Of a DNA stretch of 56,991 nucleotides, positions 27,905 through 43,510 are shown one piece after another. The stretch's first letter is position 1. Every line of letters starts with the position of its first letter. The notes beneath the pieces are model-generated. The model saw nothing but the letters and a program-made list of their open reading frames with translations, did not search any database and was not told where the DNA came from. The translations under genes were made by a program, and so were the position numbers. The stretch covers positions 1 through 56,991 of the forward strand of contig JAJOIN010000060.1 in the NCBI GenBank assembly GCA_021209335.1. The letters run 5' to 3'. The DNA comes from Aeromonadaceae bacterium. Its GTDB lineage: Bacteria > Pseudomonadota > Gammaproteobacteria > Enterobacterales > Aeromonadaceae.

Positions 27905-28561
27905 TTAACGCTCAGCGGCCGTTAAAAACTCATGGCGAGTGGCCGCATTGGTCTTGAAAGAACCACCCAATGCCGTTGTCGTGGTGACACTGGTGGCATC
28001 CTGTACCCCCCTGGCCTTCACGCAGTAGTGGGTGGCCGTGATGCTGATCGCCACATCCTCGCTGCCTAGTAGGGTCTGCAACGCCACCAGCACCTGCTGG
28101 GTCAGCCGCTCCTGCACTTGGGGCCGTTTGGCAAAGAACTGGACAATGCGATTGATCTTGGACAGACCAATCACTTTCTTCCGGGGAAAGTAGGCCACAG
28201 TGGCATAACCATCGATGGTGACAAAATGATGCTCGCAGGTGCTGGTCAGGCTGATGCGACTGACCTTGATCATCTCATCCATGCCCATCTTGTTCTCGAT
28301 GACGGTGATCTTGGGAAAGGCACGGTAATCCAGCCCAGAGAAAATCTCATCCACATACATCTTGGCAATGCGCCTGGGGGTCTCGGCCAAGCTGTCATCG
28401 GCCAAATCCAACCCCAGCACCTGCATGATCTGCTCCATGCTGGCAGTGATCTGCTGCCGTTTTTGCTCGGCGCTAAGACCGTTCTCCAGGCGGGGGGTTT
28501 CCAGACCTCGGGACTCCAAGGCGGCTCGGACCAGCAGGGCTTCTTGACTCAGCTCGCTCAT
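27905..28561 (-). CDS. folE: GTP cyclohydrolase I
   Basis: First enzyme of tetrahydrofolate synthesis, GTP to dihydroneopterin triphosphate. 218 aa. Zinc ligands are visible: Cys in TSTCEHHF with the two adjacent His, and Cys in THYCVKARG. Signature [21 protein letters not shown] and the [22 protein letters not shown] motif are complete. ATG 28561. A TATAAT -10 box on the minus strand lies at 28662-28667. Upstream, on the other strand, begins a candidate sigma-54 small RNA gene. Confidence 0.96.
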
Positions 28562-28737
28562 TACATCTCTCCAGCACCTAACAGCAGGATCCTCGACTCG
28601 CGGCCGCTAACCTGAGGATGTCCACACCGATGAACTACAACGCAAATCGAAACCGGCAGGCATTATAGCCTCGCGCGCCACAGGGCCCATTACTATTTTT
28701 GCCCTGTCCTTATCCGTGCCCGCCCCCTGTCATCAAT

Positions 28738-28783
28738 TTGCAATCTGCAACGCTGCGAATGACCTCCGATTTGCAAAATGCAA
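28738..28783. promoter_or_regulatory. two TTGCA-N3-TGCAA boxes (LuxO-type enhancer sites)
   Basis: TTGCA-ATC-TGCAA at 28738-28750 and TTGCA-AAA-TGCAA at 28771-28783. The second extends to a 19-bp perfect dyad GATTTGCA-AAA-TGCAAATC (28768-28786). Centres are 33 bp apart, about three helical turns. TTGCA-N3-TGCAA is the known binding motif of the bacterial enhancer-binding protein LuxO at vibrio qrr promoters. They lie 90-120 bp upstream of a sigma-54-like element, the usual enhancer distance. Confidence 0.65.
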
Positions 28784-28864
28784 ATCCAAATGGCTCCGCT
28801 TAGCAAAAGTTAACCTTTTAGGGGTCAAAACAGCGAGTTGGCGTGAAAAAGGTCCCAAAAAAAG

Positions 28865-28881
28865 TTGGCACGCTATTTCCA
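28865..28881 (+). promoter_or_regulatory. candidate sigma-54 promoter (-24/-12)
   Basis: TTGGCACG-CTAT-TTCCA. The -24 element is a perfect TTGGCACG and the spacing to -12 is right. The -12 element is TTCC instead of TTGC, one mismatch at a conserved base. The predicted transcript start is about 28891-28893. Confidence 0.55.
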
Positions 28882-28890
28882 TATATGAAG

Positions 28891-28973
28891 GGGTAAACCA
28901 GTTTTATCCCGTGCTCTCTTCGGCTTATTGCTGAAGTTTGGTCAACACTTACTAGGGTTGACCATTTTTTTTT
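28891..28973 (+). ncRNA. candidate LuxO/sigma-54-dependent small RNA (Qrr-like in arrangement)
   Basis: About 83 nt between the predicted start and a nine-T terminator. Three successive hairpins are visible: GGGGTAAA/TTTATCCC (8 bp with one G-U, 28891-28912), CTTCGGC/GCTGAAG (7 bp with one G-U, 28919-28937) and the terminator GGTCAA/TTGACC plus T9 (28940-28973). No coding frame with a ribosome-binding site fits. The order of enhancer boxes, sigma-54 element and short structured transcript is that of vibrio qrr genes, but the transcript does not show the conserved qrr pairing segment as I remember it. Identity as a true Qrr homologue is therefore open. Confidence 0.6.
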
Positions 28974-29017
28974 ATCTGGTGAACGTCACCGCCTCAAACG
29001 AGCCCTTACTAGCCGGA

Positions 29018-29377
29018 TCAACCCTGCATTAACCGCGGTTCACTCACAAGATCCTGAATAGCCATCAGACTGTGAGGCAGGCTGGTCTTTAGCTGTGTGA
29101 CCCACTGCTGTATGATACCCCAGTCACGCCGTCGGCAGGCCTGCTCTAGGCTCTGTGCATGATCGCGGCAAACCAGGGCGCCATAGGTGGCGCAGACCGA
29201 TTTGAGGGTATGGGCCAGCAAGCAGAGTTCTTCCGCATCATGGCTGGCCAGGGCACTGTCGATAGCCAGCAAATTTTGCTGCCCATCCTCCACAAAGATC
29301 TGAACCAGTGCAGGCAGCAGCTCTTCACCCGTGTCTTGCCCAAGGCGAGCAAAGACCTCTCGTGAGATCCACTCCAT
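29018..29377 (-). CDS. single-domain histidine phosphotransfer (Hpt) protein
   Basis: 119 aa, made of one Hpt four-helix domain. The phospho-acceptor is His56 in LLAHTLKSVCATYGA, followed by the C-terminal helix pair. It begins MEWISREVFARLGQDTGEEL. ATG 29377 has GGGAG upstream. It passes phosphate between a hybrid kinase and a response regulator; in size and type it is comparable to LuxU, but I see no LuxO-type regulator in this window. Its stop lies 45 bp from the small RNA terminator (convergent), and it is divergent from the kinase-like gene at 29607. Confidence 0.88.
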   Translation of the reverse strand: MEWISREVFARLGQDTGEELLPALVQIFVEDGQQNLLAIDSALASHDAEELCLLAHTLKSVCATYGALVCRDHAQSLEQACRRRDWGIIQQWVTQLKTSLPHSLMAIQDLVSEPRLMQG

Positions 29378-29400
29378 GTTTAACTCCCGTGCTTATAATT

Positions 29401-29415
29401 CCCACTGACAGTGGG
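29401..29415. promoter_or_regulatory. perfect 15-bp palindrome upstream of the Hpt gene
   Basis: CCCACTGACAGTGGG, 7-bp arms around one base, 24 bp upstream of the Hpt start and next to a TATAAG-like -10 on the minus strand. It is a plausible operator for the divergent Hpt/kinase-like pair. Confidence 0.4.
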
Positions 29416-29606
29416 GCTGATCGTGTCAGCGTTATGTTGTTCAGTTGCGCCCCGCCAAGGTGGCAGGCACAGCCTCATTTGCATATAGGATAAAGTATCC
29501 TGGAGGTCATCGCCACGCAAAGCACGGTGGCAGTCAGACGAAAGCCACGTATGCTTAGAAGCAAGTGAGACTCCCCCTATTTCGCTCACGGCTGCTGAGG
29601 TTATTG

Positions 29607-31334
29607 ATGGATTTATCCTTCAGTCAGAAGATCCGCATTAGCATCATAATGGCCGGTCTGCTGCCTTGGTGTCTCTTCATGCTGCTGATGCTGCAATACA
29701 GCGATGGGCCTGCTGAACGGTTGGCTCCGCAGATCCGGCAGAGTTGGCAGCAGCTAAATCATCAACTCCATAGGGTGATGGATCTGGCCATGCTCACCGC
29801 CCATCTGGACACCCCTCTCCCGCCTATCATGAGCGGCTACTGGGAAAAGACCCAGGGCGGCTGGCAGGGCGGCGGTTCAGCGCTCCCGCTGGACGATTAT
29901 CGCTGCGAGCCACAACCCTATTTTGCCACTCAATCCCTCAAACCCGAACAGCTTAAGCTGTTTGCCTGTCAGCGCCTGGGCAGCAAATTACGACTGTTCA
30001 TCTTTGATGTGCCGACCCTGCTGCGCCAGCTGGATGTACAGGGCTATCAGATCAAGCTGTTCTACCCGGTGAAGGATCGCATTATCACCCTTAACGGCGT
30101 AAACAGCCGGCTGATCCTGCTGCCGATGAACAAAAGTGCCGGCATAGACACGGCTGTCTTCCGCACACCTAAGGGCTATCTGACCCGCCATGGACAGGGC
30201 TACTATTGGGATAAAACCGCCTTTGGCTGGACTCTGTATCTGAGCAGCCCCCTACCGGCGCTGAACCCTAGTCTGGATCAGTTGGGGCTCTTCATCTGCC
30301 TGACCTTGGGGTTGATCCTGCTGCAAGGCTGGACGATTGGGATCCTGTTGCGTCGCCGGCTCAACTATCTTGGCCATGCCTTTGCCCGGATCGCCCTGGG
30401 GGATGCCAACTTTCGCCTGCCCATCGCCGGCAAGGGGGAGTTTCACCAGCTCAACTTAGGCTTCAATCATATGCTGGATCATCTGCAACGCCAGCAACAG
30501 CAGCTTGATGAGCAGCGGCAGGCCGCCAACGACAAGGTGACGCGCCTAGAAACGATCTTGAGCCAAGTGCAGCAAGTGCATAACCAGCTGTTCAAAAAGG
30601 CAAAGATGACTTCGGTCACCACAGAGCTATCGGCCTTGTGGAGCGAGCTGGCGCCCTGTCTGCAAACCCTGATAGGCAGCCTGGCGGCACTCAATGAACG
30701 GCAGCAACAGATCCAGCAGCAAGTGGAGCGTTCGAGTATGGATCGCAAACAGGTGCGGCAATTGATTGCTACCTGCGCCGGTGATCTGGCGGCGAGTCAA
30801 GCCACAGTGCAGCAAGCCTGGCAATTAGTCGTCAGCCGAATTGACGGGCTGGCCGATGCCAAGATGTGCGAGCAGCAAGATCTCAACCTGTATGAACTTC
30901 TGCTGCAGGTGCAACATAGCTACACAGAACCATTGCGCCTGGCAGGTCACAGTCTCTACCTGCGCGGCCCGCACGATCTGGTCGTCCACAGTAATCCACA
31001 AGCCCTGCAACGCATCTTCGCCAACCTGATTGAGCACACCCTTAACCAGGCCTTTGCCACGCACACCGCCGGGGAGATCATCATCAGCATCAAGGCCGTA
31101 TCAGATGAAGAGATCCAGATCCAGTATCGTGATAATGGTGCGGGTATCCCCTTGTCACTGCAGGAGCAGCTGTTCGAACCCTTTACCGGTCGCCAGGATG
31201 ATCTGCCCAGCGGGCTGGGACTCTATCTGATCCACGAGCTGGTCATTCATCTGCTGGGCGGCCGCATTGCCTGCAATTCAACCCCCTCACAGGGGACCGA
31301 ATTTCTCATCTGGCTGCCGCGCCCTCACCTCTAA
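29607..31334 (+). CDS. membrane histidine-kinase-like protein lacking the phospho-acceptor His
   Basis: 575 aa. TM1 is at about 8-30, followed by a periplasmic domain at about 31-224, TM2 at 226-248 (LGLFICLTLGLILLQGWTIG), a HAMP domain at 249-300, a coiled coil at 285-335, a dimerisation-like helix pair at 334-412 and a HATPase_c domain at 430-575. Where a HisKA H-box should read HExxxP, the sequence is LWSELAP: Trp345-Ser346 replace the His. The ATP site keeps Asn in FANLIEH, DNGAGIP (G1), LFEPFTG (F) and SGLGLYL (G2), but the second N-box Asn is His. ATG 29607 has GAGG at good spacing; a GTG at 29565 is the alternative. Likely a pseudokinase, sensor or allosteric partner, perhaps acting with the divergent Hpt gene. 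Confidence 0.85.
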   Translation: MDLSFSQKIRISIIMAGLLPWCLFMLLMLQYSDGPAERLAPQIRQSWQQLNHQLHRVMDLAMLTAHLDTPLPPIMSGYWEKTQGGWQGGGSALPLDDYRCEPQPYFATQSLKPEQLKLFACQRLGSKLRLFIFDVPTLLRQLDVQGYQIKLFYPVKDRIITLNGVNSRLILLPMNKSAGIDTAVFRTPKGYLTRHGQGYYWDKTAFGWTLYLSSPLPALNPSLDQLGLFICLTLGLILLQGWTIGILLRRRLNYLGHAFARIALGDANFRLPIAGKGEFHQLNLGFNHMLDHLQRQQQQLDEQRQAANDKVTRLETILSQVQQVHNQLFKKAKMTSVTTELSALWSELAPCLQTLIGSLAALNERQQQIQQQVERSSMDRKQVRQLIATCAGDLAASQATVQQAWQLVVSRIDGLADAKMCEQQDLNLYELLLQVQHSYTEPLRLAGHSLYLRGPHDLVVHSNPQALQRIFANLIEHTLNQAFATHTAGEIIISIKAVSDEEIQIQYRDNGAGIPLSLQEQLFEPFTGRQDDLPSGLGLYLIHELVIHLLGGRIACNSTPSQGTEFLIWLPRPHL

Positions 31335-43214: not shown

Positions 43215-43305
43215 CTAGCCTTGGTGGCCCCGCTATCGTTCCCCTGGCGGGGAGTAGACCGGAAGCTTTGCGTCCTGACCTTTCGGTACAGTTTGCCATT
43301 TCATG
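43215..43305 (-). promoter_or_regulatory. cyclic di-GMP-I (GEMM-I) riboswitch
   Basis: On the minus strand: GGCAAACTG, tetraloop hairpin TACC-GAAA-GGTC, then AGGACGCAAAGC, CCGG and, after a variable stem, TAGCGGGG. These match the GEMM-I core (GGCAAACC, GAAA loop, GGGACGCAAAGCC, CCGG, tetraloop receptor). The 3' flank GGCTAGG (43214-43220) is a perfect complement of CCTAGCC (43157-43163), which directly abuts the AAAGGAG ribosome-binding site (43150-43156), a likely expression platform. Exact P1 ends are uncertain. Confidence 0.85.
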
Positions 43306-43510
43306 CAGTCATTAATGTGCGACGACTGTAATGGAGACGAATGAGAATTACAATGAAGTCATTGATATTTTGACTTTTTTTCAAAAATAACCGAAAGAAA
43401 GCGCTTTCATAACCCCGCGACTGCCCAGTCATAACCCCCAAAAAACGGTTTCATGCGAGTCGTTACCTGAGGATAACCAGAGCAAAGATGGCAAGGCTGA
43501 CTCAGAGCAA

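Follow-up and report, generated by a model that had tools for sequence, protein, structure and literature searches.

A previously uncatalogued small RNA gene unit with LuxO-type boxes and a sigma-54 promoter beside a LuxU-type gene in Aeromonadaceae

Does the DNA between folE and a LuxU-type gene in an Aeromonadaceae genome encode a small RNA of the kind that LuxO and sigma-54 control in vibrios, and is that RNA a Qrr? The question was addressed in a window of 56,991 nucleotides (the whole stretch of DNA analyzed), contig JAJOIN010000060.1 of assembly GCA_021209335.1, from an Aeromonadaceae bacterium whose genome (G000) is 66% complete. Positions 28738-28973 are a real small RNA gene unit located between the two protein-coding genes. 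The unit was previously uncatalogued, and Rfam is without an entry for the RNA. The unit and its neighbors consist of the following features.

27905-28561, minus strand: folE (GTP cyclohydrolase I), divergent neighbor of the RNA gene
28738-28750, no strand assigned: upstream LuxO-type box TTGCAATCTGCAA, TTGCA-N3-TGCAA with perfect arms
28771-28783, no strand assigned: downstream LuxO-type box TTGCAAAATGCAA, TTGCA-N3-TGCAA with perfect arms
28865-28881, plus strand: sigma-54 -24/-12 promoter TTGGCACGCTATTTCCA, of the form TTGGCACG-N4-TTCC-A (family form TTGGCACG-N4-TTTC-A)
28891-28973, plus strand: small RNA gene of about 83 nt, predicted start about 28890-28892, end in the T run
28890-28910, plus strand: hairpin 1 (GGGGTAAA/TTTATCCC, 28890-28897/28903-28910), particular to the window
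28902-28921, plus strand: core TTTTATCCCGTGCTCTCTTC, 20 nt, nearly invariant, the proposed mRNA-pairing segment
28918-28936, plus strand: hairpin 2 (CTTCGGC/GCTGAAG; CTTCAGC/GCTGAAG in most relatives)
28940-28973, plus strand: intrinsic terminator, hairpin GGTCAACA..GGTTGACC followed by nine T (28965-28973)
29018-29377, minus strand: LuxU-type histidine phosphotransfer protein of 119 aa (Pfam Hpt), convergent with the RNA

Boxes, promoter and RNA body

An earlier note on this DNA had described two perfect boxes 33 bp apart, and these were confirmed with starts at 28738 and 28771. The two boxes compare with 0.14 perfect matches expected by chance in the whole window. The upstream box has a C at one W position of the consensus TTGCAWWWTGCAA for LuxO boxes (PMC10162802), and the downstream box is identical to the LuxO ChIP-seq site of V. 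cholerae qrr1 (PMC10328515). LuxO binding at the locus is inferred from these matches. The promoter, which the note had placed about 90 bp downstream of the nearer box, lies 94 bp from it, start to start. The TTCC at -12 had been regarded as a weak point of the assignment; it is instead a lineage trait, because most Aeromonadaceae have TTTC at this box and some Succinivibrionaceae have TTGC. The RNA start, 11-12 nt after the C of -12, is inferred from sigma-54 geometry, and transcription itself remains an inference without expression data. A promoter/terminator scan found no sigma-70-like promoter in 28500-29500. The same scan applies strict stem-loop rules and did not report the RNA terminator; the hairpin and T run were read from the sequence and fold. 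A further promoter-like match, at G000:C96 of the window's genome, was rejected as an ordinary sigma-54 promoter before an apparent transporter binding-protein gene.

The strand from 28885 to 28975 folds at -30.3 kcal/mol (z = -4.2) into three hairpins. The three hairpins and nine-T end that had been read in the window are thus present in its fold, but only part of this structure is kept in relatives: pairing is 100% in hairpin 2 and in the terminator hairpin across 27 Aeromonadaceae sequences, whereas hairpin 1 is not conserved (53% of cells paired). The terminator has one compensatory pair, U-A to C-G, in the Oceanimonas/Zobellella relatives, and covariation is modest because the RNA sequence itself barely changes. 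In the core, TTTATCCCGTG is invariant in 34/34 aligned sequences, Succinivibrionaceae among them, and UUUAUCCCGUG is likewise unchanged across all 34.

The conserved terminator hairpin, with the end of the luxU-type gene close behind it on the opposite strand of the window, leaves room for a terminator or leader element that makes no regulatory RNA. This explanation is hardly credible. The T run serves only the plus strand, yet that strand has no gene ahead of the RNA (folE being divergent) and no gene start between the RNA and the convergent gene. The most conserved segment is the unpaired core, not a hairpin.

Two riboswitches were recorded as separate observations. A c-di-GMP-I riboswitch lies at 43220-43307 on the minus strand of the window (66.9 bits), and a molybdenum-cofactor riboswitch lies near the RNA gene of an Oceanimonas-group genome (L020 1837-1980, plus strand).

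Conservation and distribution

A DNA search found the unit in 33/36 family genomes besides the window; among the other families sampled, no full match reached significance. The genera with the unit are Aeromonas, Tolumonas, Oceanimonas, Oceanisphaera and Zobellella, joined by several Succinivibrionaceae; folE also adjoins the RNA gene in Tolumonas and in one sister genome. Covariance searches of 395 genomes of the order matched every Aeromonadaceae genome drawn and seven Succinivibrionaceae, diverged copies included, and returned nothing credible elsewhere in these genomes or in 253 genomes of the class. A second model found none outside in the 253 class genomes apart from a single weak match that had neither box nor core, and weak matches in G123, G277 and G554 were rejected for lacking boxes, promoter and core. 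An exact scan of a named collection with a 21-nt core returned 56 stretches, all from the five genera above, from Succinivibrionaceae/Aeromonadales or from unplaced proteobacterial metagenome genomes.

Within genera, identity is 93-100% in the RNA core and 77-83% in the promoter, about 42-49% in the adjacent spacer, 42-55% in spacer and box-zone DNA together, 31-54% in the distal upstream block and 45-75% in the downstream block. Absence of conservation in relatives had been named in advance as grounds for refutation, and the boxes, -24/-12 element, core, hairpin 2 and terminator are all observed to be kept.

Boxes with ≤1 mismatch occur upstream of the promoter in 30/37 homologous loci (1.8 expected), and the 37 loci hold 51 such boxes in total, against the same expectation of 1.8. 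Succinivibrionaceae RNA loci have two to four tandem boxes, mostly perfect, several Oceanimonas-group loci have boxes only with two mismatches, and one locus has none. Tandem perfect boxes are rare, being found in 13/395 genomes of the order and in none with a reversed-pattern control. Seven of these 13 genomes carry them upstream of the new RNA or of a vibrio-type qrr1; one of the 13 has them at a Vibrionaceae qrr1/luxO promoter that shares the promoter start AAAAAGTTGGCACGCTA with the new RNA gene. Tandem boxes in other families (L203-L207, L210, L212) were rejected as relatives, there being no comparable small RNA downstream.

Some of these other tandem-box loci have features of their own. 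At L207 (G128:C183:2038-2070), in another family, tandem perfect boxes are followed by a TTGGCACAGTATCTGC sigma-54 promoter before a protein gene. L203 (G321:C10:533271-533315) lies beside an apparent STAS-domain gene and about 5.6 kb from a LuxO-type gene; its boxes may reflect direct LuxO-type control of another cluster. L212 (G084:C16:58461-58504) is a second tandem-box locus in a Succinivibrionaceae genome, separate from the RNA gene.

LuxU-type gene, LuxO homologues and a proposed relay

The gene convergent with the RNA was called an orphan Hpt gene in the earlier note. It is LuxU-type and not an orphan in this lineage, where a homologue follows luxO in sister genomes. Its best-scoring family is NCBIfam LuxU (NF041948) at E 1.8e-8 and 34.7 bits, below the curated cut-off of 140. 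The order luxO-hpt was observed in G001, G002, Oceanimonas, Oceanisphaera and Zobellella, and luxO is not adjacent in the window itself. The three named genera have the order luxO-hpt-(convergent) RNA; two genomes of the window's genus have luxO-hpt at a distance of about 3.5-4.5 kb from the RNA gene. An Aeromonas genome has a hybrid kinase gene convergent with the RNA, followed by a FIST-domain protein, another gene and the Hpt gene. The spacing of locus tags leads us to infer that this kinase/Hpt cluster matches the A. hydrophila 'LuxQ'/'LuxU' locus tags, which are three genes apart (PMC7512022).

Other kinase genes were noted. The Aeromonas FIST-domain protein and hybrid histidine kinase convergent with the RNA span L080 5856-9140, and the window's genome has a similar FIST and kinase-Hpt pair close to luxO (L039 9262-12440). 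In the window, a histidine-kinase-like gene divergent from luxU (29565-31334, plus strand) has HAMP and ATPase domains and no Pfam HisKA match.

The search for a luxO gene elsewhere in the genome, proposed in the earlier note, succeeded. The LuxO homologue of the window's genome scores 639 bits over its full length with NCBIfam NF041946, below the cut-off of 800, with 384 for the next NtrC-type protein. The surroundings of this luxO show no conspicuous LuxO boxes. Among complete family genomes only G004 is without the RNA, and it has no LuxO either; LuxO homologues are present in families with neither the new RNA nor Qrr. A tree places the proteins in two LuxO-type clades with limited backbone support. 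One clade, linked to luxU, contains the Oceanimonas group, the sister genomes and Succinivibrionaceae; the second contains Aeromonas, Tolumonas, the sister genomes and the window's genome. Both paralogues coexist in sister genomes (L083, L103, L306, L307), and clade distribution differs between genera. The window's genome, 66% complete, yielded only the second paralogue and not the luxU-neighboring one of the sister genomes. Of 11 HTH residues essential in V. cholerae LuxO (PMC11407668), 9 are identical in the window genome's LuxO and 10-11 in the luxU-linked Aeromonadaceae paralogue.

These data bear on which protein would be the activator. The second paralogue, in the manner of SypG, could be the main one at the same boxes and sigma-54 promoter and respond to a surface/biofilm or nitric-oxide signal, not to density. 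We consider this a serious possibility that falls somewhat short of an even chance. This clade is the only one seen in Aeromonas, Tolumonas and the window's genome, V. fischeri SypG and LuxO both activate qrr1 via overlapping TTGCAWWWTGCAA sites (PMC10162802), and the Aeromonas FIST and hybrid kinase genes beside the RNA are comparable to NosP/VpsS feeding LuxU (PMC6769237). However, it is the luxU-linked clade that accompanies the RNA in the Oceanimonas group and Succinivibrionaceae, in most of which it is the only strong LuxO-type match, and there are no data on FIST or kinase specificity.

The conserved elements, the LuxO homologue in the same genome and luxO-luxU beside the RNA in relatives support the initial reading of a LuxO/sigma-54-type small RNA. 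We consider it very likely that the gene makes a single-copy, trans-acting RNA driven by LuxO and sigma-54 that is Qrr-like in action and not Qrr by sequence. In the proposed mechanism, the LuxU-type Hpt protein encoded beside the RNA would pass phosphate to LuxO, with the FIST-domain protein and hybrid kinase of the same cluster in relatives as the likely sensor input. The phosphorylated LuxO-type enhancer-binding protein on the two boxes would activate the sigma-54 promoter, and the RNA would be made when the relay is phosphorylated. The nearly frozen core UUUUAUCCCGUGCUCUCUUC would then base-pair at ribosome-binding sites in the manner of Qrr RNAs. The direction of the phosphorelay and the use of Hfq are inferred, and luxO/rpoN dependence and quorum-sensing control have not been shown.

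Relation to Qrr, predicted targets and known systems

Rfam searches at gathering and permissive thresholds found no relative of the RNA, and Qrr (RF00378) was unmatched in the window region at E up to 10. The Rfam Qrr model scored its Vibrionaceae positive controls at 108-116 bits and left the new RNA loci unmatched; above its cut-off it matched only Vibrionaceae and nothing in Aeromonadaceae or Succinivibrionaceae. The reciprocal search of Qrr loci with the new RNA model gave nothing better than E 0.1. Qrr and the new RNA are mutually exclusive, the latter not being found in Vibrionaceae. The earlier note could not recognize the vibrio Qrr segment in the transcript and allowed for a diverged or a new family; the new-family branch is right because Rfam Qrr does not match.

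A true Qrr orthologue whose body diverged past recognition under a conserved promoter would account for the same boxes, promoter start and luxO-luxU neighborhood, and for an RNA of similar size with hairpins and a terminator. The promoters are alike, AAAAAGTTGGCACGCTACCTGC for Vibrionaceae qrr1 and AAAAAGTTGGCACGCTATTTCC in the window, and the transcripts are wholly different. We regard such orthology as unlikely. Neither the Rfam Qrr model nor the reciprocal model finds a cross-match, Qrr1 is divergent from the 5' side of luxO whereas the new RNA is at the 3' side of luxU, and gradual drift is disfavored by a core that does not vary between two families. A swapped output RNA, in which the same relay, boxes and sigma-54 promoter drive two non-homologous RNAs with different targets, one in vibrios and one in aeromonads/Succinivibrionaceae, and the aeromonad cue may be nitric oxide or FIST-sensed instead of density, is only just short of an even chance in our judgment. 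If this is true, anaerobic rumen bacteria would have a circuit of the Qrr type that operates with no regulator of the HapR type.

The complement of the core, GAAGAGAGCACGGGATAAAA, resembles ribosome-binding regions. One predicted site lies in the window.

29385-29393, minus strand: predicted pairing site AGCACGGGA, whose 9 nt complement the core, in the ribosome-binding region of luxU (a prediction only)

The luxU starts in the window's genus, AGCACGGGA (window), GAGCACGGGA (G002) and GAGAGCAC (G001), are complementary to different registers of one core, and these predicted sites therefore suggest feedback on the relay. In Aeromonas, galE AGCACGGGATAAAAAATG has 13-15 contiguous pairs with the core in some species and keeps parts of the site in others; the site in the galE ribosome-binding region at L232 1500-1520 is a perfect complement, and the site is absent in other genera. 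Both luxU in the window's genus and galE in Aeromonas are targets by prediction only. Target predictions are lineage-specific, and no universal target was found. A HapR/LitR-type gene is present in Aeromonas and the window's sister genomes, but searches of Oceanimonas-group, Tolumonas and Succinivibrionaceae genomes did not recover one, so it is not a general target. The HapR query served as a probe only; it matched a vibrio-family genome at 60% identity. The litR leader has a 9-10 nt complement to the RNA in two sister genomes and is not convincing in Aeromonas. LuxO-type 5' regions held no convincing universal pairing site. A search for the pattern GAGCACGGG before ATG was discarded, its many matches being mostly inside genes and not common to genomes.

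Aeromonas papers draw LuxQ-LuxU-LuxO-LitR without an RNA step on genetic evidence only (PMC5247445, PMC7512022), and the A. salmonicida genome paper states that unidentified genes may participate, vibrios using multiple small RNAs (PMC2556355). No description of the RNA was found in the open-access literature; subscription papers were outside that scope. The new RNA is a natural candidate for the missing RNA step in Aeromonas, a genus with pathogens of fish and humans, and would extend Qrr-type circuits beyond Vibrionaceae and into gut anaerobes with a different RNA.

GlmY/GlmZ and CrcZ are sigma-54-driven small RNAs, and the sigma-54 promoter of a small RNA gene is what the new RNA shares with them; their activators and boxes are different, and neither has an Rfam match at the window RNA. 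NosP proteins carry FIST domains. The V. cholerae NosP/VpsS-LuxU-LuxO relay (PMC6769237) likewise has a FIST-domain protein and hybrid kinase encoded with a LuxU relay, whereas the Aeromonas FIST and kinase genes are located between luxU and the RNA gene and lack NosP identity or NO-binding data. Dual activation of qrr1 by SypG and LuxO in V. fischeri (PMC10162802) also involves two LuxO-type paralogues and one box type, but the second aeromonad paralogue does not group specifically with the Vibrio paralogue and its role at the RNA is undemonstrated. Compared with Vibrio Qrr1-5 (RF00378), the new RNA has no sequence or covariance match, a different conserved core, a single copy, a -12 that is usually TTTC, a position on the luxU 3' side, and a HapR/LitR-type target missing in several lineages. 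It is inferred to work like a Qrr but is not filed as one because the Rfam Qrr and reciprocal models both fail; the two share a TTGGCACG sigma-54 promoter with LuxO-type boxes lying about 70-130 bp ahead of it, an RNA of ~85-110 nt with a terminator, and a genomic link to luxO in some lineages.
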